Source: Candidatus Omnitrophota bacterium (GTDB lineage Bacteria; Omnitrophota; Gorgyraeia; Tantalellales; Tantalellaceae). Taken from it: 32,741 nucleotides of DNA. Below the pieces are notes generated by a model, which was given only the letters and a program-made list of their open reading frames with translations, was not told the origin of the DNA and searched no databases. The stretch lies in the NCBI GenBank assembly GCA_016783605.1, contig JADHWG010000014.1:1-32741 (forward strand), read 5' to 3'. Both the position numbers and the translations under genes were made by a program. Shown here piece by piece: positions 1-31,819 of this stretch (its first letter is position 1; every line of letters begins with the position of its first letter).

Positions 1-3000
1 AGTATATCCCGCTGAAACTTACCGTGCCTGAAGATACTTGCTCGGTCAGAACCTCGGAGGGTTGTAAAGCCGTAGCCGCGCCGGCGGTGGCGGACAACGT
101 AATTTGAGATGTTGAATCGCCGGTTATTATGTTGCCGTATTGGTCTTGAACCTCTACAGTCGGCTGAGGATTAAACGGCGCCGAAGCAATAGCGTCCATT
201 GCCCCTGTTGGAACCGTGAAGCCGAGTTTACTCGCCGAATCCGTAGTTACGGTTATGTCACCGGTCGCGTCATCGGTCGCTATCGCGTGGGCGGCGGTTA
301 TGGTTCCGACTCCGGTATTGTTTAATGCCGGTTCAAACGTAACGCTTGAAGCGGAAGTTGTAGATAGATCGCCCTCGGTAAGGGTTCCGGTTACGCCCCA
401 GGTTACTGTCGCGTTATTGAGGTACGCATCTCCCGAGGTGTAAGCAACGGCGTAAAGGGTTAAGGTATCATGATTGGCGATGAGAGAATCAGTTGTTATT
501 TCGCTTCCCTCGCCGCCCGCCGCGTCTCGTATAAGAATATGGCCGTCTCCTGGAAGGTTTACGTCAAAGGTATTAGAAACGTCGTCTTCCATTGTATTGC
601 CGCAAGAGTCCTTCGCGCCGGTTATGCTGATATGACACTCTCCGGCTACAGAAGACAGTAGTGTAGTAGTACCTTCCCAAAACGTAGGCTCGGCGTCCTG
701 ATAACCGTTGGTATAGCCCTCTCCGGTTTTAGCGACTATTGTAGCGGTGGTATACGGATCGCTGATGCCGTATTTTATCGTGGGGGCGGTTGCCGTGTCC
801 ATATCCTCGCTGAAGGTTATGGTAAAATCTGTTTCAGTTTCGGCGGGCACAGGGCTCACCGGATCTAAAACCACGCTTGAAACTGTCGGCAGTACGCTAT
901 CTAAGGTGGCGGTAATATCAAAGGCCGCGGTTTCACCGGCTAGGGTGAAGGTAATAACGAAAGTATCGGAGGTTTTGCTGGTATACATGGAGTATTTGTT
1001 CGTATTGGTGGCAGGAACCAGAGGGTCCGGCCATGTGCCGTAAGTTTCGGCATCTGACTTCCCTTGATCCGCAACACCTGTCGTATCGTAATAGATTTTA
1101 GTATTGGCATTATCCCCCCAAGCGGCAAGGACATATTCCGTACTGGCAGACAAACTCACGAGAGAGGAAAACTCACTTGTGTACCAACCAGAGGTTGACG
1201 CCGGAATCGACACCGCGTCTCCTGTTCCGTTATTTAAGCTAAGGTTGGAGTTATAAAGAGCGTATTTAGCCGCGTGAGCGGCACCCGCGTCATCGTTTCC
1301 CAGATAAGCGGTAATACTGCTTACGGTTTCTCCTGATGCGCCTTCCGTAAAAGCCGCGCCCTTGATCACGTTTTCCAAACTAATGGAACTCGCGCCTTGC
1401 GTATCATACCCGAACGTAGGGTCAACAATAACCGGATAAGCCGCGTTGTCCAGCCACTTCCGGTCGATGGTGATCGTAATAGTGCCACTCCCACGCTTCT
1501 GTCCCTCATCCTGAGAAACAGCCCCTTCGTCATCCTGAGCCGCAACCCCTTCGTCATCCTGAGTCGCAACCCCTTCGTCATCCTGAGGAGCAATCCCCCC
1601 GTCATCCTGAGGAGCAATCCCCCCGTCATCCTGAGGAGCTCTGCGACGAAGGACCCCACCCTTTTTCACCTTGCGGGTGGAATCCACTCCCACTTCACCA
1701 CTCACCACCGAATGCTCTATCTTCAAAACCCCCCAAACCCAATCCCCATTTGCGTCTATGATTTTCGGCCGATACACATGAAACGCCTTCCCCGCCTTGT
1801 AATTACCCCCCTGCTTGCTTTCGTGATAGACCGCGTAGGAACCAACAACCTCCTCGGGACGCGCCGCGCCCTGAGCTATTTCTTCTTTACTGAGGGGGCC
1901 TTGATAGTAAAACACCAGCCCCTCCGTTTCTATCGGCAGACTAACCACGTTGGAATCGGGAATCTCCTTAAAAACAACTTCAAACTCAACACCACCGCTT
2001 TCGTTGATGACAAACGTCGAATCAACTTCTTCCCGGCTCTTTTTATAAAAACTGCTCCCTATCTCCGGTGAATCCCAATCTATTTTGCCCGCGTTCCGAG
2101 TTACAGATTTTTTCTCCCGTTTTATCTTATTATCCGGAAATTCCACGCTCAGCGAACTTTCTTCTCCCCATCGCTTTATCTTCGCGTGAGGTCTAAACTC
2201 CATAGTCTCAAAGTCCCCAATTTCAGTTTCGTCTTTTCCGAACATAATTTTGTATCGCTTTTTAAGATTGCGTTTTTCTTCTTCTGTCGGAGTGAACTCA
2301 ATAACTACGGTTCCCGCGCCGCCTCTTGTCGCGCCAGAACCTCCGTTCGCGCTAATTACGCCGTCATAAGTCCGCACGGCTGTTTTGACATAAATCCGCC
2401 CGCCGCCGCCGGCACCGCCCGCGCCGTCAACGTATCCTAACCCGGATTCTTCCACTTCACTCCGTTCAGTGTCAGAATGACGAGAAAAACCGTCATCTCC
2501 CCCATCCGCCGTAATATTTCCCGACCCGTCCAAAACCCCCGTATCTATCAAAATGCTGCCGCCCGCGCCGCCGCCCGCGCCTGCCACGCCGTCCGCGCCG
2601 TCAACCGCGATATCCCCTATCACGGTGAGTTTCCCCGGAACAACAAATCTCACAGCGCCGCCACCCGCGCCGCCGGTCGCGCCGTCAACAACACCACCAC
2701 CACCAGACCCAAAATCAACAGGGTCAAGAGAAGACCCATAACGTATCCCGCCGGAACCGGCATTATTGTCTCCCGCGCCGCCCGCGCCGCCATACCCCGC
2801 GCCGCCCGCGCCCGCGTCTTGATTTCCCGGCTTGCCTCTACCGACACCTTCGCCCGCCGCGCCGCCCGCGCCGCCGGAGAAACCCTTCCCGCTCGCCGAA
2901 ATTAACGCGCCTTCCTCGACAACGAGATTGGTAGCGGCCACCGTCACAGCGACTCCCTGAACGGAAGAATCAATTGTAAGCGCCACGCCGGTTTGAATGG

Positions 3001-3223
3001 TGAGCGTCCCCGTAACTTCCATGTCCGAAGTCCACGTCGTGTCTTCCATAATAGTTACGTCGGTAGGACTGGCAAACCCAACTAAAACTTTGTCAGCCTG
3101 GAAGAATAACGAACACGTCACCAGAAACAAGGTCAGGACAAGCGTCCCGACAATGACACCCAGCGTCACTTTCCCTTGAAAGTCCGGCAGCCCAATTCTA
3201 ATTTTTTTATTATAGGTCTTCAT
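1..3223 (-). CDS. Giant secreted Gly-rich/Ig-like surface protein, C-terminus beyond window (missed by ORF track)
   Basis: Reading the minus strand from the ATG at 3223 gives an uninterrupted frame of 1074 codons to base 1, with no stop, which probably explains its absence from the ORF track. AGAGG lies about 8 nt before the ATG. Residues about 17-42 form one hydrophobic segment (signal peptide or anchor). Residues about 100-290 are Gly/Ala-rich with a beta-helix look (GGAGGAGG runs). About 310-520 is a charged unrecognised domain, ending in a YPVIVDPTFGY-type motif near 590. From about 730 onward the protein looks like Ig-like/Big domains (ITFSEDMD, VQDQYGN). It is likely an exported adhesin-like protein; its ligand is unknown. 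Two stretches are translated dispersed repeats (separate entries). The leader carries a c-di-GMP riboswitch. I am sure of the frame and unsure of the role. Confidence 0.85.
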   Translation of the reverse strand, partial: MKTYNKKIRIGLPDFQGKVTLGVIVGTLVLTLFLVTCSLFFQADKVLVGFASPTDVTIMEDTTWTSDMEVTGTLTIQTGVALTIDSSVQGVAVTVAATNLVVEEGALISASGKGFSGGAGGAAGEGVGRGKPGNQDAGAGGAGYGGAGGAGDNNAGSGGIRYGSSLDPVDFGSGGGGVVDGATGGAGGGAVRFVVPGKLTVIGDIAVDGADGVAGAGGGAGGSILIDTGVLDGSGNITADGGDDGFSRHSDTERSEVEESGLGYVDGAGGAGGGGRIYVKTAVRTYDGVISANGGSGATRGGAGTVVIEFTPTEEEKRNLKKRYKIMFGKDETEIGDFETMEFRPHAKIKRWGEESSLSVEFPDNKIKREKKSVTRNAGKIDWDSPEIGSSFYKKSREEVDSTFVINESGGVEFEVVFKEIPDSNVVSLPIETEGLVFYYQGPLSKEEIAQGAARPEEVVGSYAVYHESKQGGNYKAGKAFHVYRPKIIDANGDWVWGVLKIEHSVVSGEVGVDSTRKVKKGGVLRRRAPQDDGGIAPQDDGGIAPQDDEGVATQDDEGVAAQDDEGAVSQDEGQKRGSGTITITIDRKWLDNAAYPVIVDPTFGYDTQGASSISLENVIKGAAFTEGASGETVSSITAYLGNDDAGAAHAAKYALYNSNLSLNNGTGDAVSIPASTSGWYTSEFSSLVSLSASTEYVLAAWGDNANTKIYYDTTGVADQGKSDAETYGTWPDPLVPATNTNKYSMYTSKTSDTFVITFTLAGETAAFDITATLDSVLPTVSSVVLDPVSPVPAETETDFTITFSEDMDTATAPTIKYGISDPYTTATIVAKTGEGYTNGYQDAEPTFWEGTTTLLSSVAGECHISITGAKDSCGNTMEDDVSNTFDVNLPGDGHILIRDAAGGEGSEITTDSLIANHDTLTLYAVAYTSGDAYLNNATVTWGVTGTLTEGDLSTTSASSVTFEPALNNTGVGTITAAHAIATDDATGDITVTTDSASKLGFTVPTGAMDAIASAPFNPQPTVEVQDQYGNIITGDSTSQITLSATAGAATALQPSEVLTEQVSSGTVSFSGIY
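1505..1672 (-). repeat. In-frame dispersed-repeat insertion inside the giant surface protein
   Basis: This stretch has the CGTCATCCTGAG core in a roughly 24-bp tandem array of about six units. It ends in the GACGAAGGACCCCACC tail that is seen in intergenic copies. The frame stays open on the minus strand and encodes APQDDGGI/ATQDDEGV-type octapeptides, about 45 residues in all, between two unrelated domains. The same DNA in the other frames creates the shadow ORFs at 1366-1659 and 1397-2071. Confidence 0.85.
2445..2483 (-). repeat. Second in-frame dispersed-repeat arm in the giant protein
   Basis: The arm containing TTCCACTTCACTCCGTTCAG, found repeatedly between genes elsewhere, sits inside the Gly-rich domain. 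It is read as RHSDTERSEVEES, a charged 13-residue island in an otherwise Gly/Ala-rich stretch. The flanking Gly-rich sequence resumes in the same frame. Confidence 0.8.
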
Positions 3224-3257: not shown

Positions 3258-3620
3258 GAAAAGCAGATTCTTCCACTCCGCTCAGAATGACGAACGTGGG
3301 AACTACCATCATCCTGAGCCACTCCCCACTTCGTCATCCTGAGGAGCGAAGCGACGAAGGACCCCACCCATTCCCACCTTGCGGTCGGCCCCCCACTCCC
3401 TCATTCCATTTCAATTCGCGAAGAACAGATCCTTCGCTACGCTCAGGATGACGAACAAGGGTAGCTCAGAATGACGAAATGAAAAAATCGTCATTCTGAG
3501 CCCACGCCCCCTTCGTCATCCTGAGCCCACACCCCACTCGTCATCCTGAGCCCACGCCCCACTCGTCATCCTGAGCCCGAAGGGCGAAGGACCCCACCCA
3601 TTCCCACCTTGCGGTTGGAG
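3258..3620. repeat. Dispersed-repeat cluster between the giant gene and its riboswitch
   Basis: Multiple CGTCATCCTGAG cores occur in both orientations, with the GAAGGGCGAAGGACCC tail and a CCCACCTTGCGG end. The cluster separates the riboswitch terminator (3636) from the ATG (3223), making an untranslated leader of about 400 nt after the switch. Confidence 0.9.
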
Positions 3621-3676: not shown

Positions 3677-3755
3677 TTCCGGCAGCCTGACAATCCCGCG
3701 TTTCACAGGACTCATAGCTTTGCGCCCTCACATTACTGTAAGTTTGCCTTTTTCG
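3677..3755 (-). ncRNA. Cyclic-di-GMP-I (GEMM-I) riboswitch, copy 1
   Basis: The minus strand has the hallmark order: GGCAAAC, a stem CUUACA/UGUGAG closed by a GUAA (GNRA) loop, GGGCGCAAAGC, a second stem AGUCCUG/CGGGAUU, and closing GGCUGCC pairing back to GGCA. This matches the GEMM-I layout. It lies between a promoter (3788-3816) and a terminator, upstream of the giant surface gene. Two further copies (19.1 and 21.4 kb) show compensatory loop and stem changes. Confidence 0.88.
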
Positions 3756-3787
3756 TTTTATACAAAGAACATCGTAATCACCCTTTA

Positions 3788-3830
3788 AGTATACATTAAA
3801 ATGCCAAGCCTGGCAAGTGCCAGGCACTTT
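3788..3830 (-). promoter_or_regulatory. Sigma-70-type promoter with AGTGCCTGGCACTT palindrome (copy 1)
   Basis: On the minus strand TTGCCA (3811-3816) and TATACT (3788-3793) are separated by exactly 17 nt. The palindrome AGTGCCTGGCACT overlaps the upstream edge of the -35 box. The predicted start lies about 25 nt before the riboswitch. Confidence 0.75.
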
Positions 3831-9296: not shown

Positions 9297-10493
9297 TCAT
9301 CTTTGTGAACGCAATACAAATTTTTTATATCCATCCGTAACAAAAACCAAATTCCACCACCATTTTAAAAATTGATTCTTAATCATTTTTTTTCTTATTC
9401 TGTGTGTCTTGTAATGTTTCATTACTCCAAGATAGGAGTTCATACTACTTACAAACTGATTCTCTTCTTCATTGGTTGGTCTGCGATTCAAAATAACTTT
9501 GTTTTGTTTTCGCATCGCATGGTAAAAACTGCCTTTAGTGCGGTTGGAAATATATGTACGGTAAGGTTTTATTACCGCGCCGAGAAATAAAAATCCTGTC
9601 TTGTAATGTTTTATTTTTGTTTTGTCGGGATGCAAAATAAGTTTTTCATTTGCTTTTAAATAGCCTGTAATCTTCGGCAAAGCGTCTAAAAGATAACCTT
9701 TATCAGGATGAATAACAAAAAAATCATCTACATAGCGACCATAGTATCTAAACGCCATAACTTTCTTCATCCAATGGTCAAAATCATTCAAAAAAACATT
9801 GCCAAAAAGCTGGCTGGTAAGATTGCCGATTGGTAAACCGCAACCTTCCGAAGTATGAAACAAACTTTTATTAGCGGGAAGCCCATCCCAATCGGAACGC
9901 GAGCCTTTAATCCTGCAATTATCGGCAGGATTACGAAATATGGTTTTTTTCAATAGAAAATCAACCATGCCGGTATCAAATGGTATCTTCTTGTTCAATA
10001 AGGCGCATTTTTGATATTCTGTTCGCAATACGCCGTTCACTTTGTTGTACAACAATTCTCTGTTGATGCTCATGAAATAACCTGAAATATCCATTTGCAT
10101 GATGTAACACTCTTTTTTATAGTTTTGAGAACAAGAACGTAAAAACTTTGCCGCTCTTTGAATCCCGGCACTTGTTCCTTTGCCTTTACGACACGAATAG
10201 CAGTCGTAAATAAAGTATTTTTCAATTATTGGGCTGAGATATTGGAATAAAAGGTGATGTACCACTCTATCCCTAAAATCCGCCGCGAATATTTCGCGTT
10301 TTACAGGTTTGTTCACAATAAACGCCATTTCACACAAAGGTTTGTACACGCGCGTTTCTATCTCATTGGACACCTTAAAAATTTCACGTTCAAAATTCAA
10401 TTCGAATTTCAATTGATTGATGGTGTTTCTTTTATTTCGACGCGCGTTGTAGTAGCCCCGAAACAAATCGGTAACTAATCGCGTATTATCCAT
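9297..10493 (-). CDS. DGR reverse transcriptase, 398 aa
   Basis: Copies the template RNA with adenine-directed errors to make the cDNA that replaces the variable repeat. Visible RT blocks: the VNKPVKREIFAADFRDRVVHHLL region, QMDISGYFMSI (first catalytic Asp), the DGR-type motif GLPIGNLTSQLFGNVFLN, and the active-site YGRYVDDFF with intact YVDD. There is no maturase or endonuclease domain, unlike group II intron RTs, and the length is normal for DGR RTs. The start codon overlaps the end of avd by 8 nt (ATGGATAA), implying translational coupling. TR, VR and Avd upstream confirm the assignment. Confidence 0.96.
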   Translation of the reverse strand: MDNTRLVTDLFRGYYNARRNKRNTINQLKFELNFEREIFKVSNEIETRVYKPLCEMAFIVNKPVKREIFAADFRDRVVHHLLFQYLSPIIEKYFIYDCYSCRKGKGTSAGIQRAAKFLRSCSQNYKKECYIMQMDISGYFMSINRELLYNKVNGVLRTEYQKCALLNKKIPFDTGMVDFLLKKTIFRNPADNCRIKGSRSDWDGLPANKSLFHTSEGCGLPIGNLTSQLFGNVFLNDFDHWMKKVMAFRYYGRYVDDFFVIHPDKGYLLDALPKITGYLKANEKLILHPDKTKIKHYKTGFLFLGAVIKPYRTYISNRTKGSFYHAMRKQNKVILNRRPTNEEENQFVSSMNSYLGVMKHYKTHRIRKKMIKNQFLKWWWNLVFVTDGYKKFVLRSQR

Positions 10494-10869
10494 TGCCGGT
10501 TACCTTTGTTTTATCATACGTCACGCCTTTATTTATTGATTTTTTCCAACCGCTAAGCTGTTTACTTACGTTTTCTATCAGCATGTTGAGAGAGATCATT
10601 CTCTTGATGCTTATTTGCCGTAAATCATGCAATAACCGTATAAGCAAGCGCACCGCTTCTGTATTCTCCATACACCGATCTATATGGATTTTTTTCTCTC
10701 GTCTCGAATTGACTTTATAGATTTGCAGTAACAATTCAAGAGTTTCATTTTTCAGTTTTTCTCCAAGAGTATATTTGTATTCGCGTGACAAACCGGTTGT
10801 CGTCTTACAAATTTCTATCAACAGATCATACGCCTTTTTAAAAACGGGTAAAGTGTTATACAATGCCAT
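10486..10869 (-). CDS. avd: Avd, accessory variability determinant, 127 aa
   Basis: A small basic, helical protein of the four-helix-bundle Avd family. In characterised DGRs Avd forms a pentamer that binds the RT and template RNA and is needed for mutagenic homing. Its length (127 aa) matches the family. The sequence is a run of amphipathic helices (YDLLIEICKTT, LKNETLELLLQIYKVN, AVRLLIRLLHDLRQI, MLIENVSKQLSGWKKS). It lies directly before the RT with an 8-nt overlap and after the TR. No strong Shine-Dalgarno is visible before the ATG at 10869. Confidence 0.92.
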   Translation of the reverse strand: MALYNTLPVFKKAYDLLIEICKTTTGLSREYKYTLGEKLKNETLELLLQIYKVNSRREKKIHIDRCMENTEAVRLLIRLLHDLRQISIKRMISLNMLIENVSKQLSGWKKSINKGVTYDKTKVTGNG

Positions 10870-10889
10870 AATTTGCTATTTTACCGCCC

Positions 10890-11400
10890 TCTCGTCGTTC
10901 TGCACCCACCCTCCGTCATTCTGAGCCCGAAGGGCGAAGAACCCCACCCTTTTTCACCTTGCGGGTGGCCCCCCACTCCCACCTCGTCATTCTGAGGAGG
11001 TACGACGAAGAATCCCATTCGTTAAGAACAGATCCTTCACTCCGCTCAGAGCCTGCCCTGAGCTTGTCGAAGGGATGACGAGCGTGGAGCTGGATAACGA
11101 GCGTAGAGCAGAATGACGAACAAGAGCGCACAGGATGACGAGCGTAGAGCTGGATGCGAGCGTGGCGCGTCATTCCACCCCACTCATTTCCACTCCCACC
11201 GTCGGCATCCTCAGGAGCCCCCCTTTTTTTCGTCATTCTGAGGAGCTTCATTTTTTTCGTCATCCTGAGGAGCTTGCGACGAAGGACCCCATCCTTTTCC
11301 ACCTTGCACGTTGTCCCCCACTCCCTCATCCTTTTCCACCTTGCACGTTGCAACACGGGCACATGCAATGTGCCCCTACATCCCACATCCCCCGCGTGTT
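10890..11400. repeat. Dispersed-repeat cluster inside the DGR, between TR and avd
   Basis: About 500 bp of CGTCATTCTGAG/CGTCATCCTGAG cores, with degenerate GATGACGAGCGTGGAGC variants near 11070-11170 and a GGGCACATGCAATGTGCCC palindrome near 11356. The track ORFs here (10916-11410 minus; 11135-11443 and 11154-11450 plus) are repeat translations. The TR transcript must cross this DNA if TR, avd and RT share a message. Confidence 0.88.
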
Positions 11401-11443
11401 TCAACTCCACGGTGGTGAAAATTTTGGCAGTATTGTTTCATAG

Positions 11444-11624
11444 TCGCTGAGGCAACGCACACTAAAGCCGTTGGCCTTATTGTTGTTATTCACGTTGCTG
11501 TTCGTGCTGTTGAAGTTCAGTTTGTACCCGTTGGTAGTACTGTTCTGGGTGCTGCTCCAGTAGTTGCCGTTGACACCTCTGTTGTTCAGCGCACCATCGC
11601 TGTTGTCGAGATAGCCAGCAGCAT
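11444..11624 (-). other. DGR template repeat (TR), 181 bp
   Basis: Matches the VR at 12435-12615 over 181 bp (offset 991) with 15 substitutions. Every one falls on an adenine of the TR sense (minus) strand and none on C, G or T. The TR is rich in AAC/AAT codons in the variable part and identical to the VR in the flanks. The upstream flank diverges immediately outside 11624. The ORF 11401-11727 reads through the TR and is not a gene. Confidence 0.97.
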
Positions 11625-11746
11625 ACCAGCCAATAAGTTGCCACTTTACATGTGAATACAAGCAGCTAAGCATGTATTCATCTTTTTTTTGCTTTCGGAA
11701 ATCGATATTCATTCCTAAAGCGGGCAACCCGACTATAATCCGCGCT

Positions 11747-12364
11747 CTAACCGAAACCGATAGTCTCGGTTACTCCGGCGTTTCCCATCCCTGCCAAATC
11801 TTTTTGTAATCGCGTAACAAACTGCATAGTTTCTATAAGAGTATTGTTTGCAACTTGGTAAGTCCGCAGCTTTTGAATAATCTCAATTTCTTTTACATCT
11901 AAACGTTTTGCATGTTCCCTTTTTTCGTCATTCTGAGGAGCTCCCCCACTCGTCATCCTGAGCCCACTCCCCCTCGTCATCCTGAGCCCGAAGGGCGAAG
12001 GACCCCACCCATTTCCACCTTGCACATTCGCCCCCACTCCCCCCACCTGCTTTTGCCAGTTTTCGTAACTGCCGTTAGCGGTCATTCCCGATATGATAAC
12101 TTTTTTTTCACCTTCATCGCTGATGCCATAGCCCTTTTCTAATGCTTTTTTCTTCACTTTTGTCAAGCTTTGCTCGGGAAAACCGCAGTAGTAGACATAT
12201 TCATTCACCTTTTTTACCCACTTTTTGCGCACTTTGTAAGAAAAAAGAGACGTTACCATAAACATCGCGGAGCGATTATACGCCCGAAAAAACATCCCTT
12301 CTTTCAACAAATAAACGGCATTTTTATTCCTCAATTCCTGCTCTATTATTTCCCTTACGGTCAT
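11747..12364 (-). CDS. DGR-associated MutS-domain-I-like accessory protein, 205 aa, carrying an in-frame repeat
   Basis: Lies between the target gene and the TR, where DGR accessory genes are found. The N-terminal half (TVREIIEQELRNKN, then VYLLKEGMFFRAYNRSAMFMV) resembles the mismatch-recognition domain I of MutS (a LFRxGDFYE-like segment). MutS-like accessory proteins are known in some DGRs; the role is unproven. About 43 residues in the middle are translated dispersed repeat (GPSPFGLRMT-type), after which a helical C-terminus resumes (EIEIIQKLRTYQVANNTLIETMQFVTRLQKDL). I start at the ATG at 12364 because GAGAGG lies 7 nt upstream; the track start at 12418 runs through a hairpin. Fair confidence in the family, good confidence that it is a gene. 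Confidence 0.75.
   Translation of the reverse strand: MTVREIIEQELRNKNAVYLLKEGMFFRAYNRSAMFMVTSLFSYKVRKKWVKKVNEYVYYCGFPEQSLTKVKKKALEKGYGISDEGEKKVIISGMTANGSYENWQKQVGGVGANVQGGNGWGPSPFGLRMTRGSGLRMTSGGAPQNDEKREHAKRLDVKEIEIIQKLRTYQVANNTLIETMQFVTRLQKDLAGMGNAGVTETIGFG
11918..12046 (-). repeat. In-frame dispersed-repeat insertion in the DGR accessory gene
   Basis: A full repeat unit (three cores plus the GAAGGGCGAAGGACCC and CACCTTGCACATTCG tail) interrupts the coding sequence between ENWQKQ and RLDVKEIE. The frame is kept, so the insert is a multiple of three and adds about 43 residues. Confidence 0.85.
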
Positions 12365-12396
12365 TAGCATTCCTCTCTTTTTCCAAAAAAAATCGA

Positions 12397-12409
12397 CCCG
12401 CTTCGCGGG
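12397..12409 (-). promoter_or_regulatory. Candidate DGR target-site hairpin downstream of the VR
   Basis: The minus strand reads CCCGC-GAA-GCGGG, a perfect 5-bp hairpin beginning 22 nt after the target stop codon and 25 nt past the VR edge. Hairpins or cruciforms just 3' of the VR aid target recognition in characterised DGRs. The stem and loop here are shorter than usual, so this is a candidate only. Confidence 0.45.
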
Positions 12410-12430
12410 ACATCTCAAATAATCAAATTG

Positions 12431-13501
12431 TCAATCGCTGAGGCAACGCACACTAAAGCCGTTGGCCTTACTGCTGTTATACACGTTGCTGCTCGTGCTG
12501 GCGAAGTACAGTATGTACCCGTAGGTAGTACTGCTCTGGGTGCTGCTCCAGTAGTGGCCGTAGACACCTCTGCTGTACAGCGCACCATCGCTGTCGTCGA
12601 GATAGCCAGCAGCATGTAACACTAAATCAGAGCCGAATGCCCAACTCCAAGTGGTTCCGACATCGACATTAGTATATTCACCGCTGGTTGGCAGGCGCCA
12701 GCCCGCGCCAAGTAGTAGCGCGCAGGGATCAAGAGCTGGATTCCAATTAGAAGCATTACTACCTGAATCAGTATAACTTTCACTTTCGTTAATGGAAGTG
12801 ATAGTCCATGCCGGAGACGGCCCGACAGCGTATCCTTGTTTTCGGTTAAACTGCCAATACCAACCCGCGGAAGCGGCAGTAGCATCATCAACCGCGGTTG
12901 CCTGCTGGGTCGCGCCGAGGTTTCGGGTGATCCAGCACTTTTCAGCTCCCGAAATGGATGTGACTACGGTTCCGTACGTAATGTCTACCGTGACAGGCGA
13001 AATACCATCGCCGGCGGTGTGGCTAACAGTGATAGGGTCTCCGGGGGCCCACACATACTCGCCCGCCGTAAGCGTTACCGTCAAGGTCTGCTCTCCTTCG
13101 GCCGTGGTAGAGCTTGGCGCGGTAAATTGCAGATCAAACGTCTGTCCCGCCGCCGCGGTTAAACTTGCAAGTTCGATTCCACTGCCTACGTTGGTAATAG
13201 CGTCCGACCAACTGCCCGAGGCGTCGTGTTTTAGCACAAAAATGTCCGCCCCCGCACCGGCACCCGGACTCAAGGAGGCACCAGTCACCTTGATATAGAC
13301 TGTTGACGTCACATCACCCTCGTTGGTCGCGGTAAAGGTGTCACCTGTTGTCGTCCTCGCGAGACTCATCCCCACTGTCCCTATTGCCCACGGACCGCCG
13401 GTAATCGACACCGCCCGCCCCGCGTAAGCCGTGGCAGAGACTGCGAAAACAAAGACCAACCCCGTCAATCCCATTTTTATTACCCTATTGAACAGCTTCA
13501 T
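12431..13501 (-). CDS. DGR target: secreted protein with Fib_succ_major/C-type-lectin-like variable domain, 356 aa
   Basis: An exported protein diversified by the DGR. A signal peptide (ending near SATAYAG) is followed by a beta-rich Thr/Ser/Gly region (about 30-190) that is probably a stalk or display domain. The C-terminus (about 195-356) matches the Fibrobacter succinogenes major paralogous type: CWITRNLGATQQ, GWYWQFNRKQGY, DPC...GAGWRLPTSGEY, GHYWSSTQ and KANGFSVRCLSD. That fold is related to C-type-lectin domains that tolerate variability. The last 60 codons are the VR; 14 residues differ from the TR translation, mostly Asn to Tyr or Ser. GGGGGTG precedes the ATG. The ligand is unknown. 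Confidence 0.95.
   Translation of the reverse strand: MKLFNRVIKMGLTGLVFVFAVSATAYAGRAVSITGGPWAIGTVGMSLARTTTGDTFTATNEGDVTSTVYIKVTGASLSPGAGAGADIFVLKHDASGSWSDAITNVGSGIELASLTAAAGQTFDLQFTAPSSTTAEGEQTLTVTLTAGEYVWAPGDPITVSHTAGDGISPVTVDITYGTVVTSISGAEKCWITRNLGATQQATAVDDATAASAGWYWQFNRKQGYAVGPSPAWTITSINESESYTDSGSNASNWNPALDPCALLLGAGWRLPTSGEYTNVDVGTTWSWAFGSDLVLHAAGYLDDSDGALYSRGVYGHYWSSTQSSTTYGYILYFASTSSNVYNSSKANGFSVRCLSD
12435..12615 (-). other. DGR variable repeat (VR), 181 bp
   Basis: The 3' end of the target gene. The 15 differences from the TR lie between 12471 and 12595: in the sense direction eight A to G, six A to T or C and the remainder in a doubly changed codon, none at non-adenines. The last 36 bp (12435-12470) are identical to the TR and GC-rich, fitting the initiation-of-mutagenic-homing end. 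The stop codon lies just beyond. Confidence 0.96.
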
Positions 13502-14644: not shown

Positions 14645-15015
14645 TCATTAAAAACAAATTCTCCCGCTTCACTCCACCCCTCGTCATCCTGAGCCCGAAG
14701 GGCGAAGGACCCCATCCATTCCCACCTTGCACTTCCATCCCCACTCCCTCATTCCATTTCCATTCGCTAAGAACAGATCCTTCCACTTCACTCCGTTCAG
14801 TGTCAGGATGACGAGGTGGAGAGGAACTCAGGATGACGAGGTGGGAGCTACCGTCATCCTGAGCCCGCTCCACCCCCTCGTCATCCTGAGCCCGAAGGGC
14901 GAAGGACCCCATCCATTTCCACCTTGCACGTTCGCTACCCCCACTCTCCTCTTTCTCGTCATCCTGAGGAGCTCTTGCGACGAAGGATCTCATTCCCACC
15001 TTGCGATTGAACACT
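14645..15015. repeat. Dispersed-repeat cluster, right limit of the dense repeat zone
   Basis: At least five cores in both orientations with the usual tails. Beyond about 15.02 kb this family nearly disappears; only degenerate copies remain near 28.84 and 29.15 kb. Confidence 0.9.
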
Positions 15016-15527: not shown

Positions 15528-17999
15528 TTATTCCACTATCAAAGACCCGCCTTTACCGGGGTCAAATCCTTCGCCGCCTTTAACGCATATCGTTCCTTTT
15601 ATTCCTCCACTCGCGGCTTTGAGATGAATTCTTCCGCCGCCTCCGCCACCTCCCGTTAGGCCGCCGTAACCGCCTTCGGCGGTTATCACGGCTTTATCGC
15701 TAAAAAACTCGTCAGCCGTTAAGTATACGCTTCCGCCCGCGCCGCCCGCGGATTCATATTCGGTTTCATTACCGAACATTTTTCTGTCTTCTCCGTTGGC
15801 GGTAAGGTATCCGTTAATTTCAAAATCGCCGCGCGCTTTAAGTGTGATGCTTCCGCCGCCGGCTCCGCCCGCGGCATACCATCCGCCACTTCCGCCGGAA
15901 CCCAGATCGCTCGGCGCTCTTTTCGCGCCGTATCTTTCCATGTCTATGTCCGCGTCTTCTTTTTGCGTCTTGGCACGGCCGCCTTTACCTCCGTAAGACC
16001 CGCCTAAAGCGCCCATATCGAGATATTTTCCGGCGCCTCGGCCTTTCGCGTCTGCACGGATGTTTCCGCCGGCGTATCCTTTTTCATCAGCCGTTATTAC
16101 GCCTTCCGGTTTTATCGTAATGTTCTCGGCGGAGAAATTTAGTACGTATGCCTTGACGTCTTCGTTTTCTCTGTGCGTCAATATGCCGCCTCTTTCCACC
16201 ATAAGATCTCCCACGATCGACTGCGGGTTATTGTTTGCCTGGATAAGTTCCCCGCCTTTACGAACGACTATGTCTCCTGAAGCGGGGTTTATGTTGTGAA
16301 TAAGAATGAGTTTGGACGTATGCTCGCCCGTGCCGTCACCGATTATGAGTTTTTTGAAACTGATGCCGCCGGAAGTTTTAATTGTTTCGTTGCCGGCGAT
16401 GGTTACAACCGCGGAAAGATCTTGATACGCTCTTTCTTCGGCGATAATTTCTTCCGCCGTCGCGGGAGCCTCTTCGCCTTCCGAGAGAGAGACCAGCCCT
16501 TCATACGGTTCAACCGTGAACGCGCCGTCCGACAAATCATATATTTTGCTTTCGTTCGCGTCGGAAATCTTGATCACGAGATCGTCCGCCTCTAAATCGC
16601 TTGGTATCGTCCACGCGTAAATTCCGCTGTTTTCTGTTTTTGTAATTTTTGTGAATGTTTTTAGACTGGATTTTTTTGCGTATTCAAGGGTTACCGGATA
16701 GAAAAAATCGTATTCCAGCGCGGACCACATAATGTCTTTCCTGGTTCCCGCCTGCCAAGTTTCGCCGCCATTGGGCACTATCATGGTGATAATCCCGGGG
16801 GCGTAATCCAGTTCCAAAAGTTCCAGTTCTGATTCCTGTATTCCGCGTTCAAATCTTACTTTCGCTTTAGGCTGTTTCCCCGTCTTGAAATCTTCGAGTG
16901 AAACGTAGTAATATGTGTCCGCGTCGCAGTCTTTTTTATACGTTAGTCCGTTATCCGCCGAAACGTCCACGGAAATTTCATCGCCTTCCCATGCCACGAC
17001 GAGTATACGTATATCAAACGCCTCCAATAGAGGCGAGGTTACGTATTGCCCGTTATCGTATCCGTCCAAAAGTACGACGTTTCCAAGCGCATTCAAACCT
17101 ACCTTCTCAAAAGACGGCGTTATCGCCTCTTCCTGTTTGGGCTCATCGCTTGTGTCGGGTTCGGGCACAACTTCTACAAATTCCTTAAGCCATCCGCCGT
17201 TTTCATCCTGTTCACTAAAAACATCTTCAACGCGCGAGGCGTCTTTCGCGTCCACATTTCCGTAATACATATAGATGCTGACCCCGGCGGCGGGTATCTC
17301 GGGCACTTTTACCCAGATCTTCGCGGTACGCGCCGGGCTCACGCCCGTCATCGTCTCACGATAATAGGCGAGTATCGTTTCCCCGTCCGCCGCGGTAAAC
17401 CGGATATCTTCCAGACCTTTCAGCGTATTGCCCAGACAATTGACGTCGTAGTCTTCCGCTTCGAGCGTCTCTCCGACCGCGATATCGACTTGATAGTTAT
17501 ACAGCGTCCGTGAGGAGCCGGTAATGTGAATTTTTTTTCTGTATTTGAGTCCCGAAAGCTGAGGTTCTCCGAATGTAGCGACAATACCGCTTGTATCCGC
17601 ATAGGAAATCTTAACCTCGCTCAAGGTGCTTCCCGTGCCAAGCTGTGCGCGCCACTTCAGGCGGTCGCCTTTCGTGAATCCTGCCTTGAGCGGCACACCG
17701 TTAATCACTTTGTAATAGTGACTTCCCCCGTCAACGCTTACTTCAAGCGTAACCTCGCCGGTAAACACCCAGTTGGCGGTTATCTCTTCTACGAGCCCGT
17801 CCGTTGGCACACTCTTATAAACGACATAGGTGGACCCTGAAATCGCGGGCAAAGAAAAGTCCCCGTTTCCGTCAGCTCGCCAAAAAATAGACGATGTATA
17901 CGTTTTTATCTCCGCCTCCGCCGAAATCGGCCACGCCTGAACAAAAGCGAAAACCAAGATTATCAGTCCCATTTTTATTTTTCCTCTGAGCGTCTTCAT
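15528..17999 (-). CDS. Secreted DUF2341 / Gly-rich surface protein, 823 aa
   Basis: Signal peptide (IKMGLIILVFAFVQAWPISAEA), then beta-sandwich modules. A DUF2341-type domain (about 150-255) has LKYRKKIHITG, DIRFTAADGETILAYYRE and VSIYMYYGN. An acidic Pro/Glu linker follows, then an Ig-like domain with IVPNGGETWQAGTRKDIMWS. The C-terminal Gly-rich region (about 640-823; SYGGKGGRA, GGAGGGSI, GGGGGGGRIHL) resembles the Gly-rich part of the giant protein at 1-3223. The start is the ATG at 17999 with AGAGGTGA upstream; the track used a GTG three codons earlier. It lies 31 nt after the RAYT-like gene, so it is probably co-transcribed under riboswitch copy 2. Likely surface attachment; ligand unknown. 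Confidence 0.88.
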   Translation of the reverse strand: MKTLRGKIKMGLIILVFAFVQAWPISAEAEIKTYTSSIFWRADGNGDFSLPAISGSTYVVYKSVPTDGLVEEITANWVFTGEVTLEVSVDGGSHYYKVINGVPLKAGFTKGDRLKWRAQLGTGSTLSEVKISYADTSGIVATFGEPQLSGLKYRKKIHITGSSRTLYNYQVDIAVGETLEAEDYDVNCLGNTLKGLEDIRFTAADGETILAYYRETMTGVSPARTAKIWVKVPEIPAAGVSIYMYYGNVDAKDASRVEDVFSEQDENGGWLKEFVEVVPEPDTSDEPKQEEAITPSFEKVGLNALGNVVLLDGYDNGQYVTSPLLEAFDIRILVVAWEGDEISVDVSADNGLTYKKDCDADTYYYVSLEDFKTGKQPKAKVRFERGIQESELELLELDYAPGIITMIVPNGGETWQAGTRKDIMWSALEYDFFYPVTLEYAKKSSLKTFTKITKTENSGIYAWTIPSDLEADDLVIKISDANESKIYDLSDGAFTVEPYEGLVSLSEGEEAPATAEEIIAEERAYQDLSAVVTIAGNETIKTSGGISFKKLIIGDGTGEHTSKLILIHNINPASGDIVVRKGGELIQANNNPQSIVGDLMVERGGILTHRENEDVKAYVLNFSAENITIKPEGVITADEKGYAGGNIRADAKGRGAGKYLDMGALGGSYGGKGGRAKTQKEDADIDMERYGAKRAPSDLGSGGSGGWYAAGGAGGGSITLKARGDFEINGYLTANGEDRKMFGNETEYESAGGAGGSVYLTADEFFSDKAVITAEGGYGGLTGGGGGGGRIHLKAASGGIKGTICVKGGEGFDPGKGGSLIVE

Positions 18000-18030
18000 A
18001 ACTCTCACCTCTGTTTAGTTCGTCAATTCG

Positions 18031-18960
18031 TCAGTTTTCCGATTTTTCCACTTCACGTCTCTTTCTCTCTCGATCCAATCTTTTTGTCGTAGCGCGATAG
18101 TATGACACTAAATCCGCGCGATACTTCGCTTCCAGATCCTGTTTAAGCGCGTCTTCTCTCTCCTGAAACATATCTTCCACTTTCCCTTCCACTTTTTGAC
18201 TCGCTGCGAAATAGTAGTATGTGACCGCGCTTAAAGCGATGATCACTGCCGCGCCCGTCACAATAAAGACCTTCTGAAACCGGCTTCGCAGAATCATCCT
18301 TTTTCCCGTCAGGTTTTCCGCCTTATTCTCTTTTTCGAATTCATCTTTAATCCGCCGGACAAATTCCGCCGACCCGATAATCCCGCTTCTCTGCACTTTT
18401 TTATCCAACGCTTTTAGATCCGAAGGCTCGGCTTCATCTACGAATCTTTTGTACAACCTCACCTGTTCGCCGGGAATAACGGAAAACTTCTCCAACACTT
18501 CCTTCGCGTCCCCTTTCGCCTCCAAATAATGCGAATAACTCGACCACCGGTAGTCTTCGGCTTTGGAGCCGGCGTTTAATTTCTCGGGAACAAGATGAAT
18601 ATAGCGCGTCAATTCCGTCAAGTAGGTATCTTTTTCAACAACTGCCGCCTTAAACCGTCCTTTAAAAAGATGTCCGCTTCTTTCGTAGCGGCGGTTGTAA
18701 TATTTTGTGTATGTCGAATTCATCGCGTGCATAATTTCCGAAATCGTCGTTTCCGGCACAAGTTCGAGCAAAAGATGGATGAATTCCGGCATAAGCACGT
18801 ATGAAAAAAGTTTGAAGCCGTATTTTTCCTTGTATCTGGAGAGTAAGTCCACGTACGCGTCTTTATCCGCGTCGGCGCGAAAAAGCAAATTCACCTGACT
18901 ACCGTACGCGGTAACCAAGTACACCCCCTGCTCAATGTGTATTCTCGGAAGTCTTGCCAT
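18031..18960 (-). CDS. RAYT-like Y1-transposase-domain protein with membrane anchor, 309 aa (paralogue A)
   Basis: Residues about 1-130 match the Y1 (IS200/REP-associated tyrosine transposase) domain: FKLFSYVLMPEFIHLLLEL, RSGHLFKGRFKAAVVEKDTYL, LTRYIHL. The catalytic-type Tyr (Y120) is present, but the HUH pair is broken: F60-I-H62 where the family has H-x-H. A transmembrane helix follows (about 231-253, VFIVTGAAVIIALSAVTYYYF), then a highly charged, probably coiled-coil tail. This suggests a domesticated nucleic-acid-binding membrane protein rather than an active transposase. GGAG precedes the ATG by 8 nt. Upstream: promoter, c-di-GMP riboswitch and terminator. Downstream, 31 nt on: the DUF2341 surface protein. 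Confidence 0.9.
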   Translation of the reverse strand: MARLPRIHIEQGVYLVTAYGSQVNLLFRADADKDAYVDLLSRYKEKYGFKLFSYVLMPEFIHLLLELVPETTISEIMHAMNSTYTKYYNRRYERSGHLFKGRFKAAVVEKDTYLTELTRYIHLVPEKLNAGSKAEDYRWSSYSHYLEAKGDAKEVLEKFSVIPGEQVRLYKRFVDEAEPSDLKALDKKVQRSGIIGSAEFVRRIKDEFEKENKAENLTGKRMILRSRFQKVFIVTGAAVIIALSAVTYYYFAASQKVEGKVEDMFQEREDALKQDLEAKYRADLVSYYRATTKRLDRERKRREVEKSEN

Positions 18961-19024
18961 CTCTACATCTCCTTCTTATCAATCCCGCGGGACCACATCT
19001 CATGTGCCCAATCAAAAGTCACAC

Positions 19025-19058
19025 ACCAACCCGTAGGGGCACATTGCATGTGCCCCAC
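19025..19058. repeat. REP-like palindrome in the leader of RAYT paralogue A
   Basis: CCGTAGGGGCACATTGCATG followed by TGCCCC forms a near-perfect hairpin between the terminator and the start of the RAYT-like gene. The same palindrome is tandemly arrayed at 19570-19880. Confidence 0.85.
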
Positions 19059-19096
19059 AAAAAAAAACGCCCGGTAACTTACACGGGCGTTTTTAA
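19059..19096 (-). terminator. Intrinsic terminator of c-di-GMP riboswitch copy 2
   Basis: Minus strand: ACGCCCG...CGGGCGT stem followed by nine Ts, immediately after the aptamer. The loop contains UGUAAGUU, complementary to AACUUGCA of the aptamer P2 strand, and CGCCC is complementary to GGGCG of the aptamer; together these form a candidate antiterminator. Confidence 0.87.
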
Positions 19097-19098
19097 AT

Positions 19099-19178
19099 TC
19101 TCTCGGCAACCAGACAATCCCGAATTCCCCCGGGACTCACGGCTTTGCGCCCTTACATCACTGCAAGTTTGCCATTTT
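19099..19178 (-). ncRNA. Cyclic-di-GMP-I (GEMM-I) riboswitch, copy 2
   Basis: Minus strand: GGCAAAC, stem CUUGCA/UGUAAG with GUGA (GNRA) loop, GGGCGCAAAGCC, stem AGUCCCG/CGGGAUU, closing GGUUGCC. This is the best match of the three to the GEMM-I pattern. Compared with copy 1 (GUAA) and copy 3 (GCGA), the loop stays GNRA and the stem bases co-vary. It controls the RAYT-like/DUF2341 operon. Confidence 0.9.
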
Positions 19179-19219
19179 CTTTTTATACATGTCAAAGGTC
19201 TCTTTCCTGCCACTCCTAA

Positions 19220-19260
19220 AGTATACACCATATGGGGAAGCCTGGCAAGTGCCAGGCACT
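19220..19260 (-). promoter_or_regulatory. Promoter with AGTGCCTGGCACT palindrome, copy 2
   Basis: Minus strand TTGCCA (19243-19248), 17 nt, TATACT (19220-19225). The palindrome (19248-19260) abuts and overlaps the -35 box. It drives the riboswitch copy 2 transcript. Confidence 0.75.
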
Positions 19261-19569: not shown

Positions 19570-19880
19570 AATCCCCACGTCCCCTCTTACCCATACGGCC
19601 ACATTGCCCGCACCCCAATTCAATCTCCACATATCCAAAATCCTACGGCCACATCACATGCGCCCTCCCAATTCAATCCCCACGTACCCATTCACCCGTA
19701 CGACCACATTGCATGTGCCCGACTTCAATCCCCACGTACCCATTCACCCGTACGACCACATTGCATGTGCCCCCAATTCAATCTCCACGTATCCCCTTTA
19801 CCCGTAGGGGCACATTGCATGTGCCCAAATTCAATATCCACGTATCCCCTTACCCGTAGGGGCACATTGCATGTGCCCTA
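19570..19880 (+). repeat. Tandem array of about six 52-53 bp units carrying a REP-like palindrome
   Basis: Each unit reads AATTCAATCYCCACGTAYCC, then TTYACCCGTA and GGGGCACATTGCATGTGCCC. The leftmost units are degenerate (left arm GTACGACC or CTACGGCC) and the rightmost two are near-identical. No variable spacers occur, so it is not a CRISPR. The ORF 19604-19807(+) is an artefact of the array. Confidence 0.85.
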
Positions 19881-19944
19881 ATAACACCTATCGATATAAA
19901 ATTCAAAAAATTTTCCTCTGCCAACGTAATCGTAAGACATCAAG

Positions 19945-19985
19945 AGTATACACAACCATTCCACCCCTGACAAGTGCCAGGCACC
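19945..19985 (-). promoter_or_regulatory. Orphan promoter/palindrome copy 4
   Basis: Minus strand GGTGCCTGGCACTTGTCA then 17 nt and TATACT (19945-19950). It has the same architecture as the riboswitch promoters, but no GEMM aptamer and no ORF follow within 300 nt. Confidence 0.55.
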
Positions 19986-20049
19986 TTTTTCCATAACTCC
20001 TCTATTCCCCCCTTCACAACACACTACCACCATATACACCAACACACCA

Positions 20050-20130
20050 ACCCGTAGGGGCACATTGCATGTGCCCACGAGGTTACCCGCAACCTTGTAA
20101 TAACGGGCACATGCAATATGCCCCTACGAG
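20050..20130. repeat. Two REP-like palindromes in opposite orientation
   Basis: CCGTAGGGGCACATTGCATG at 20051 and its reverse (GGGCACATGCAATATGCCCC) at 20104 flank a short spacer. Nothing else is recognised in the surrounding gene-free stretch 19881-20220 apart from promoter copy 4. Confidence 0.8.
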
Positions 20131-20225
20131 ATAAAATTCAAGGTTGCCATTCCCAAATTTTCAAATATCAAACCCTTCTCTCCCACTTCCTTCGTCCTCA
20201 ATGAATAATATGCGCTCACATCTCT

Positions 20226-20319: not shown

Positions 20320-21237
20320 CTATTCAACCTCCCGTCTCCTCCGTTCCCGATCCAGCCTCTTCGTCGTCGCGCGATAATACGACACCAGATCCGCCCGGTA
20401 TTTCGTTTCCAAATCTTGTTTAAGCGCCGCCTCTCTCTCCTGAAACATGTCTTCCACTTTGTCTTCCACTTTTCGGCTCGCCGTGTAGTAGTAATATGTA
20501 ACCGCGCTTAAAGCGACGATCACGGCTGTGCCGGTTATAATAAAGACCTTCTGGAACCGGCTTCTAAGAACCAACCTTTTCTTCGTCACCTTTTCCGTCC
20601 GGTTCTCTTTCTCAAATTCGCCCCTAATTTGCTCAATGAACTCCGCCGACCCGATGATCCCGCTTTTCTGCACCATTTTGTCCAGCGCTTTCAGATCCGA
20701 ATCTTTGGCTTCTTCAACAAACCTTTTGTACAACCTCACCTGTTCTTCAGGAATAACGGAAAACTTCTCCAACACTTCTTTCGCGTTCCCTTTCGCCTCC
20801 AGATAATGCGAATAACTCGACCACGCGTAATCTTCGGCTTTGAATCCCGGATTTCCGATACCGGGAGCAAGATGAATGTAACGCGTCAAATCCGCCAAAT
20901 ATGTGTCTTTCTCAACAACCGCCGCCTTGAACCTCCCCTTGAAAAGATGACCGCTTCTCTTGTAGCGGCCGTTGTAATATTTCGTATAAGTCGAATTGAC
21001 AGCGTGCATAACTTCCGAGATCGTAGTTTCAGCCATAAGTTCGAGCAGAAGATGTATGAGAGACGGCATAAGCACGTATGAAAAAAGCTTAAACCCGTAT
21101 CGCTCTTTGTATTTGGTCAACAGATCCACATAAGCATCCCGGTCAGGATCGCCGCGAAAAAGCACATCCTCCTGCCCGCCGCGCGTGGTGACCATATACA
21201 ACCCCTGCTCAACATGTATTCTCGGAAGTCTCGGCAT
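20320..21237 (-). CDS. RAYT-like Y1-transposase-domain protein with membrane anchor, 305 aa (paralogue B)
   Basis: Close paralogue of 18031-18960 along its full length. Y1 domain: FKLFSYVLMPSLIHLLLEL, RSGHLFKGRFKAAVVEKDTYL, LTRYIHL. The first His of HUH is replaced by Leu (L-I-H) while the Tyr is kept. A hydrophobic helix (VFIITGTAVIVALSAVTYYYY) and a charged tail follow. I start at the ATG at 21237 (GGAG upstream); the track used a TTG two codons earlier. It has its own promoter, c-di-GMP riboswitch and strong terminator. Unlike paralogue A, no surface-protein gene follows; REP-like palindromes lie downstream instead. Confidence 0.88.
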   Translation of the reverse strand: MPRLPRIHVEQGLYMVTTRGGQEDVLFRGDPDRDAYVDLLTKYKERYGFKLFSYVLMPSLIHLLLELMAETTISEVMHAVNSTYTKYYNGRYKRSGHLFKGRFKAAVVEKDTYLADLTRYIHLAPGIGNPGFKAEDYAWSSYSHYLEAKGNAKEVLEKFSVIPEEQVRLYKRFVEEAKDSDLKALDKMVQKSGIIGSAEFIEQIRGEFEKENRTEKVTKKRLVLRSRFQKVFIITGTAVIVALSAVTYYYYTASRKVEDKVEDMFQEREAALKQDLETKYRADLVSYYRATTKRLDRERRRREVE

Positions 21238-21324
21238 CTCCAACTCTCCTTTTTTTCAAAATTCTAACCAAAATTCCACCTCGTAGATGGAATCCCTAAA
21301 TCCCTCTACCAACCCCCAATAACC

Positions 21325-21362
21325 AAAAAAAAACGCCCATGCAAGTTGCACGAGCGTTCTTA
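21325..21362 (-). terminator. Intrinsic terminator of c-di-GMP riboswitch copy 3
   Basis: Minus strand AACGCTCGTGCAA/TTGCATGGGCGTT, a 13-bp stem with two G-U pairs, followed by nine Ts. It sits between the aptamer and paralogue B. Confidence 0.9.
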
Positions 21363-21366
21363 TATT

Positions 21367-21444
21367 CTCTCGGCAACCAGACAATCCCGATTTTCCCGGG
21401 ACTCACGGCTTTGCGCCCTTACATCGCTGTAAGTTTGCCATTTT
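21367..21444 (-). ncRNA. Cyclic-di-GMP-I (GEMM-I) riboswitch, copy 3
   Basis: Minus strand: GGCAAAC, perfect stem CUUACA/UGUAAG with GCGA (GNRA) loop, GGGCGCAAAGCC, stem AGUCCCG/CGGGAUU and closing GGUUGCC. It precedes a terminator and RAYT paralogue B. Confidence 0.9.
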
Positions 21445-21485
21445 CGTTTTGTGTATGTCAAAGTACGTTTTTCTACTACCCCTAA

Positions 21486-21527
21486 AGTATACATCATATA
21501 GGGAAGCATGGCAAGTGCCTGGCACCT
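21486..21527 (-). promoter_or_regulatory. Promoter with GTGCCAGGCAC palindrome, copy 3
   Basis: Minus strand TTGCCA (21509-21514), 17 nt, TATACT (21486-21491), with the palindrome just upstream. It drives riboswitch copy 3. Confidence 0.75.
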
Positions 21528-21639: not shown

Positions 21640-22090
21640 ACTGCTACCTGTCGAATTTATGTAACTCCTTTAAGCATAAAGAGTGCCAGGCACGTCCCAG
21701 AGCTGATCCCAACCAATTTCCCCTGTTTTCTCTGCCCATTTTTGCCTGACAATTACATACAATTCCCACCCATTCATCCATCAAAGAACCGCCAAAAAAG
21801 TCACTTCACAACTTTATCTACCTTTTTTATCTTTAATGTCCGTAGTGCCACAATCCGGACAACAAATTCGGCGTTAATTTGAAATACGTAGGGGCACGGC
21901 ATGCCGTGCCCTTTCTGTCACACAAATCACCGACTCCATGAGGGCACGGCGTGCCGTGCCCCTACGAGATTAAACTGACCAAAAATCTGTAACGCATAAC
22001 TTGCTAAGCAAAACGCCACACAATACCTATCACTAAGAGTATACCCAACCACATCAAGCCTGGCAAGTGCCAGGCACTTTTTTATTTTTC
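21640..22090. repeat. Gene-free stretch with palindromes and an orphan promoter copy
   Basis: Holds the upstream shared leader segment (about 21650-21690), two GTAGGGGCACGGCATGCCGTG-type palindromes in opposite orientation (about 21889-21912 and 21941-21966), and an orphan promoter copy. No gene is seen. Confidence 0.7.
22038..22078 (-). promoter_or_regulatory. Orphan promoter/palindrome copy 5
   Basis: Minus strand AAGTGCCTGGCACTTGCCA, 17 nt, TATACT (22038-22043). No aptamer or gene follows within 300 nt; the palindromes at 21.9 kb come first. Confidence 0.6.
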
Positions 22091-31757: not shown

Positions 31758-31772
31758 GGTTTTTTTGTCCGT

Positions 31773-31811
31773 AAGGGCACCCACAAGGGGCTCCCTTTGT
31801 GGGTGCCCTTT
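31773..31811. repeat. Long hairpin between gltX and glnS
   Basis: AAGGGCACCCACAAGGG and CCCTTTGTGGGTGCCCTT form a near-perfect 17-bp stem without a T-tract directly after it on the minus strand. It is a REP-like element rather than a classic terminator. Confidence 0.7.
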
Positions 31812-31819
31812 TCAATTAA

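Follow-up and report, generated by a model that had tools for sequence, protein, structure and literature searches.

The window, a stretch of 32,741 nucleotides of Candidatus Omnitrophota DNA, carries two copies of a RAYT-like gene, each behind a c-di-GMP riboswitch. What would a transposase-derived protein do in such a position, and does the second copy, paralogue B, still do it?

The duplicated unit and its surroundings

The features of paralogue B, paralogue A, and a third leader, C, are as follows.

20320..21237, minus strand: paralogue B, RAYT-derived membrane protein gene (Pfam, predicted structure, and family comparison)
20485..20547, minus strand: predicted transmembrane helix of B, amino acids 231 to 251 (hydropathy; continuous helix 199 to 305 in the model)
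21329..21361, minus strand: strong intrinsic terminator of leader B (15 pairs, 9-U tail)
21368..21448, minus strand: c-di-GMP-I aptamer of B, P1b loop GCGA (covariance models)
21486..21525, minus strand: composite element of B, palindrome GTGCCAGGCAC adjoining TTGCCA-17-TATACT
21683..21693, minus strand: upstream palindrome of B, the equivalent of which is decayed in A (ATGACTGGCAC)
22038..22077, minus strand: distal composite palindrome-promoter upstream of B
15528..18008, minus strand: 826-amino-acid exported DUF2341 surface-type protein directly 3' of A, likely start ATG 17999
18031..18960, minus strand: paralogue A, 309 amino acids, with Phe60 at the HUH position and the Asn ligand replaced by Val
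19059..19093, minus strand: terminator of leader A
19102..19183, minus strand: c-di-GMP-I aptamer of A
19220..19259, minus strand: composite palindrome-promoter of A
19945..19984, minus strand: distal composite palindrome-promoter upstream of A (TTGTCA)
2..3223, minus strand: large surface-type protein behind leader C, at least 1,074 amino acids, running off the contig
About 3671-3636, minus strand: terminator of leader C
3677..3757, minus strand: c-di-GMP-I aptamer of leader C, which has no RAYT gene
3788..3827, minus strand: composite palindrome-promoter of leader C

An earlier note on this DNA had proposed that the whole unit of promoter, aptamer, terminator, and gene is duplicated. This is indeed so: unit A spans positions 18031-19259, A and B are 80% identical at the protein and DNA levels alike, and the similarity continues for several hundred base pairs upstream. 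Leader B is transcribed in the order palindrome and promoter, aptamer, terminator, and gene, and its promoter (TTGCCA-17-TATACT, 21514-21486) is sigma-70-like. The covariance-model scan of aptamer B yielded 63.5 bits with RF01051 (cut-off, 35) and 55.3 bits with the sister model RF03167, just below the cut-off of 59. The GNRA loop and paired stems described earlier are present, with loops GCGA in B, GUGA in A, and GUAA in C, and the differences among the three aptamers are mostly one-sided and preserve pairing. Selection on the RNA, which had been deduced from these base changes, is clear among 34 Omnitrophota aptamers, in which we counted 166 two-sided covariation cells versus 45 in shuffles. 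In the window leaders, the 5' arm of the terminator can pair with aptamer nucleotides ~26 to 37, which would give an OFF switch; the overall excess of aptamer-terminator complementarity over mismatched pairs was weak (p about 0.04). No ORF was found behind either distal composite promoter (22077 and 19984) except units A and B themselves. Two further aptamers were identified in the 1.65-Mb genome, on contigs C5 and C34, neither with a RAYT gene; by eye, the first precedes a glycoside-hydrolase-like exported protein (aptamer L001) and the second a membrane protein with a nitrilase-like part (L004).

The B ORF is intact over 305 codons, from ATG 21237 (two codons downstream of the TTG start at 21243 called by the ORF finder) to the stop at 20320, and is preceded by a ribosome-binding-site-like AAGGAG. 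The protein consists of a Y1_Tnp fold (approximately amino acids 1 to 150) followed by a linker, a membrane helix, and a coiled coil, with seven K/R residues before the helix and three after it. The Pfam Y1_Tnp match was 2.4e-11 for B and 3e-14 for A. The best Foldseek match of the predicted B structure was 4er8, a TnpA_REP with its REP hairpin (E, 1.5e-7; TM score, 0.75 of target). Since a sequence search of the PDB gave nothing better than E 0.07, Pfam and the predicted structure are the basis for assigning the RAYT fold. The catalytic Tyr120 is retained in both paralogues. However, the first His of the HUH motif (two His) is replaced by Leu60 in B and Phe60 in A, and the third metal ligand, the Asn of Y---NP, by Ala124 in B and Val in A. 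Two defining residues are thus absent from both, and we class A and B by sequence as RAYT-derived proteins and do not file them as RAYT transposases. With the catalytic metal ligands missing and a membrane helix present, either protein is unlikely to be a transposase; the description of B as a RAYT-like paralogue therefore stands as to its ancestry, but not as to the metal ligands or the membrane helix.

Paralogue B is under purifying selection. Over 305 codons aligned with A, dN was ~0.12 and dS 0.61 to 0.98, giving a dN/dS of about 0.12-0.19, with 52, 28, and 106 differences at codon positions 1, 2, and 3, respectively. The slowest-evolving region comprises the membrane helix and coiled coil (dN, 0.067). 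With two outgroup proteins, seven lineage-specific changes were placed on B and eight on A. The dN/dS and the symmetry of the changes rule out simple neutral decay of B, one of two outcomes that would have counted against the earlier account; the other, failure of the aptamer in the covariance-model scan, did not occur either. As that account had it, B is an orphan, with no ORF-coded adhesin between its 3' end (20320) and leader A.

The window also contains a diversity-generating retroelement (DGR; 9297-13501, minus strand), in which all 15 differences between template and target over 181 aligned bases fall at template adenines.

9297-10493, minus strand: DGR reverse transcriptase
10486-10869, minus strand: DGR bAvd-like accessory protein
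In 11401-11727, minus strand: DGR template-like repeat
12431-13501, minus strand: DGR target with an Lcl_C/Fib_succ_major-type C terminus

Short MITE-like inverted repeats of types GTAGGGGCACATTGCATGTGCCC and GTAGGGGCACGGCATGCCGTGCC fill intergenic spaces (19800-20150, 21880-21970, 31771-31812, and others), and some of them lie between terminator A and the start of its gene. Repeats of another dispersed family (1366-1660, 3400-3600, 11135-11410, and 14727-15000), which contain CTCAGGATGACGA and its complement, yield spurious ORFs (LRMTSG and VILSSSPPRHP).

The Omnitrophota family and its riboswitch leaders

Profile searches were run on 292 genomes from the class and on 285 sampled from the phylum. 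Full-length relatives of A and B were found in 47 of the 285 sampled phylum genomes (about one in six), usually as a single copy, and they are monophyletic in a phylogeny based on just the Y1_Tnp domain (support, 100/99). A hydrophobic helix at about residue 220 to 270 is present in all 41 proteins of the first set; the positive-inside charge bias is moderate (32 of 55, with 9 ties). Longer relatives carry a C-terminal beta-barrel domain that A and B lack. This domain had no Pfam match, and its resemblance to lipocalin or fHbp-type barrels was below significance, but it is homologous to the signal-peptide proteins encoded at the same loci (E, 1e-17 to 1e-33), suggesting that the C-terminal end lies outside the cytoplasm. 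The complete set of HUH, Tyr, and Asn residues is found in 22 of 22 conventional RAYTs of the same genomes and in 11 of 41 family members. On the tree, catalytic residues changed at least seven times; the catalytic Tyr is kept in 24 of 41 members, and residues of the Y1_Tnp domain are still conserved across the family. Judged from these residues, cleavage was likely lost repeatedly while the fold was retained, and it may persist in some of the 11 members that keep all four catalytic residues.

The riboswitch association was tested with a covariance model built from 34 Omnitrophota aptamers, including those of two family loci (L012 and L015) and the window's own. An aptamer lies upstream on the same strand at 38 of the 41 first-set loci (once at a distance of 805 bp) but at none of 23 conventional RAYT loci (Fisher, 1.8e-14; the loci are related by descent, so that p-values overstate their independence). 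Aptamers were also present at all 15 later loci, which were used in no model, bringing the total to 53 of 56, and Rfam's own models agreed at each of the 12 later loci tested. The associated loci are spread over many taxonomic families and include other classes of the phylum. The usual operon order is RAYT, small exported protein, and giant surface protein; the surface proteins have about 800 to 2,300 amino acids, and the N terminus of the large one is often AVQIKRVQTG or similar. In two genomes (G032 and G137), the riboswitch lies downstream of the RAYT gene. The earlier suggestion that riboswitch and RAYT gene form the core unit thus holds in part: their pairing is phylum-wide, but the pair usually heads a surface-protein operon, to which B is the exception, and riboswitches lacking the gene are found as well, at leader C and twice more in this genome.

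Aptamers L040 and L049 have AGCAAAC where most Omnitrophota aptamers have GGCAAAC. In riboswitches of this class, that position distinguishes c-di-GMP-specific from cGAMP-specific members, and some Omnitrophota aptamers of the AGCAAAC type may therefore be cGAMP switches. Many terminators of the family (L079-L085, L090-L096, and others) have stems of the form CCAGGC..GCCTGG, which resemble half-sites of the palindrome described below, inverted in order. REP sequence may have been the source of the expression platform itself.

A palindrome shared by the leaders

The earlier note overlooked a palindrome, (AAA)GTGCCWGGCAC, that accompanies the leaders. By pattern search, GTGCCWGGCAC has six copies in the genome, all of them within the window, which rules out a dispersed REP family in this genome. 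The palindrome is adjacent to the RAYT gene at both A and B. Five of the six copies adjoin the -35 box of the consensus promoter TTGYCA-17-TATACT, with the motif centre near -41, and the composite GGCACTTGNCA-16..18-TATA had five genomic matches, all in the window, and none in the control. When the 41 upstream regions were compared, the two most widely shared 11-mers were GTGCCAGGCAC and the overlapping AGTGCCAGGCA.

The position of the motif varies among subclades: in this genome it lies at -35, and in most loci in the 5'UTR, between terminator and start codon, in one polarity with A-rich sequence on the 5' side. When up to one mismatch is allowed, 40 of 57 leaders carry it between terminator and ATG. 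Deviating copies contain G.T wobbles as well as paired changes, such as GTACC..GTAC at three loci, and several keep the pairing; the weakest come without a computed chance level. In G032, from another taxonomic family, it is the surface gene and not the RAYT gene that has the composite, here with TTGACA, ahead of its riboswitch; in G137 and at leader C also, the motif goes with the leader of the surface gene, the G137 form being changed but still paired.

Outside taxonomic family f9, 27 of 33 copies are at loci of the RAYT-derived gene family. The motif was found at 2 of 25 conventional RAYT loci and is dispersed in their genomes and in f9, a distribution that suggests, but does not prove, an origin as an ancestral RAYT's cognate REP and later retention as a fixed site. 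GTGCCWGGCAC is dispersed in the genomes of L034 (G037), L016 (G048), and L111 (G085), with 138, 25, and 36 copies, respectively, often in close pairs, as in REPINs. These three genomes lend themselves to comparison where REPs are mobilised by RAYTs with complete catalytic residues.

Possible functions and significance

The architecture of gene, leader, and operon association is well supported; the regulatory act is what we infer from it. Our preferred reading, to which we would give somewhat less than an even chance, is that B belongs to an Omnitrophota-specific family of domesticated RAYTs and acts as a regulator of c-di-GMP-controlled surface operons that is anchored in the membrane and binds the palindrome. 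The cytoplasmic Y1_Tnp domain would have been largely freed from selection for cleavage while its nucleic-acid-binding fold was kept. One helix would tie the protein to the inner membrane, with the coiled coil (and, in longer relatives, the beta-barrel) in the periplasm. Most likely, the protein would bind (AAA)GTGCCWGGCAC in the leaders of surface operons and adjust their expression, by activation or repression, so that feedback from the membrane or periplasm would be added to the c-di-GMP signal. Since the motif adjoins the -35 box here, A and B would regulate their own promoters and leader C. A leader regulator is the simplest account because the motif follows the leaders even where there is no RAYT gene and because a hairpin-binding fold was kept while catalysis was lost. 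The target could be duplex DNA at -35, as its position here would suggest, extruded single strands, or RNA, as the position in most relatives would suggest. Characterised TnpA_REP binds single-stranded REP hairpins and not duplex DNA (PMC8266576); promoter binding would therefore need changed recognition or an extruded hairpin, and by this analogy plain duplex binding by A and B appears less probable. Periplasmic sensing by A and B is doubtful, as both lack the periplasmic barrel.

If the motif were instead bound as an RNA hairpin in the protein's own 5'UTR, controlling translation or elongation of the surface operon, it would be expected to tolerate G.T wobbles and paired changes, as it does, and at most loci it is transcribed, just past the riboswitch terminator and in one polarity with the A-rich side 5'; its 5' single-stranded tag and stem-loop also have the layout of a REP (PMC8266576). 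However, the window and G032 have the motif at -35, upstream of the -10 box, where the proximal promoter would not transcribe it, and the stem has just 4 to 5 bp. Moreover, we know of no RAYT that binds RNA, and we consider such regulation unlikely. The conserved operon order, together with the conservation of the membrane helix and coiled coil, which evolve most slowly between A and B, could also be explained by a factor for membrane assembly or export of the surface protein, the fold being a relic and the leader motif an inherited REP flank. This is distinctly unlikely, since the position and polarity of the motif are conserved in most loci, the motif is found at leaders without a RAYT gene, and Y1_Tnp residues remain conserved.

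The possibility that A alone functions and B is a non-functional leftover of the duplication draws on the missing operon behind B and on the single copy in nearly all other genomes. It has little probability given that ORF, AAGGAG, aptamer, terminator, and promoter are intact and that the low dN/dS and even distribution of changes were maintained over a long divergence (dS, about 0.6 to 1). We strongly disfavour, as very improbable, an ordinary REPtron, with A and B as RAYTs that are active or were so until recently, accompanied by their REPs, and with the riboswitch incidental: a Y1_Tnp domain with flanking palindromes, and the dispersal of the same palindrome in G037, G048, and G085, would fit, but A and B lack the metal ligands and have a membrane helix, this genome has no dispersed copies, and the aptamer recurs at nearly all loci.

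The regulator that we favour would combine parts of known kinds in a way not found in the literature searched. As in RAYT/TnpA_REP (Pfam PF01797; Escherichia coli structure 4er8), there is the N-terminal domain, an adjoining short palindrome, and usually one copy per genome; unlike them, the family has a membrane helix and extra C-terminal regions, degenerate HUH, Tyr, or Asn in 30 of 41 members, a palindrome that is not dispersed in most genomes, and a riboswitch leader with a surface-protein operon. In a RAYT survey, the HUH and Y residues are conserved in its classes, and membrane segments and riboswitches are not mentioned (PMC6006769). The leader resembles the c-di-GMP-I (GEMM-I) riboswitches (RF01051/RF03167) in its match to the sequence and structure models, GNRA loop, and terminator expression platform, but the controlled gene is transposase derived and the leader includes a putative palindrome of the protein-binding type. 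With membrane-bound one-component regulators of the ToxR/CadC type, the family shares a cytoplasmic nucleic-acid-binding domain, a single helix (predicted in B behind that domain), a periplasmic part, and a candidate site near -41; the fold, however, is Y1 HUH and not winged helix, and the likeness is not one of homology. The surface proteins recall the giant ORFs of the same phylum, also large and exported, for which adhesion or predation has been suggested with no mention of riboswitches or transposases, but they fall under the 20-kb cut of that study (PMC10066038). Our literature search, thin on subscription journals and preprints, found no earlier report that connects RAYTs with riboswitches, with c-di-GMP, or with membrane segments.

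It is possible, although we hold this more tentatively, that membrane-spanning regulators arose from an HUH transposase phylum-wide, with the domesticated RAYT domain reading an ancestral REP-like hairpin as its operator and the leader integrating a second messenger, by way of RNA, with a signal from the membrane or periplasm, by way of protein. It is a puzzle why bacteria retain RAYTs, which behave like housekeeping genes and look like transposases. Omnitrophota offer, within one phylum, a series from catalytically complete to degenerate forms linked to a single type of operon, a single class of riboswitch, and one candidate binding site, which makes a host function of RAYTs directly testable. 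As far as our searches show, this would be the first link of a c-di-GMP riboswitch to a transposase-derived protein, and it would provide a handle on the control of large surface proteins in the mostly uncultured Omnitrophota.
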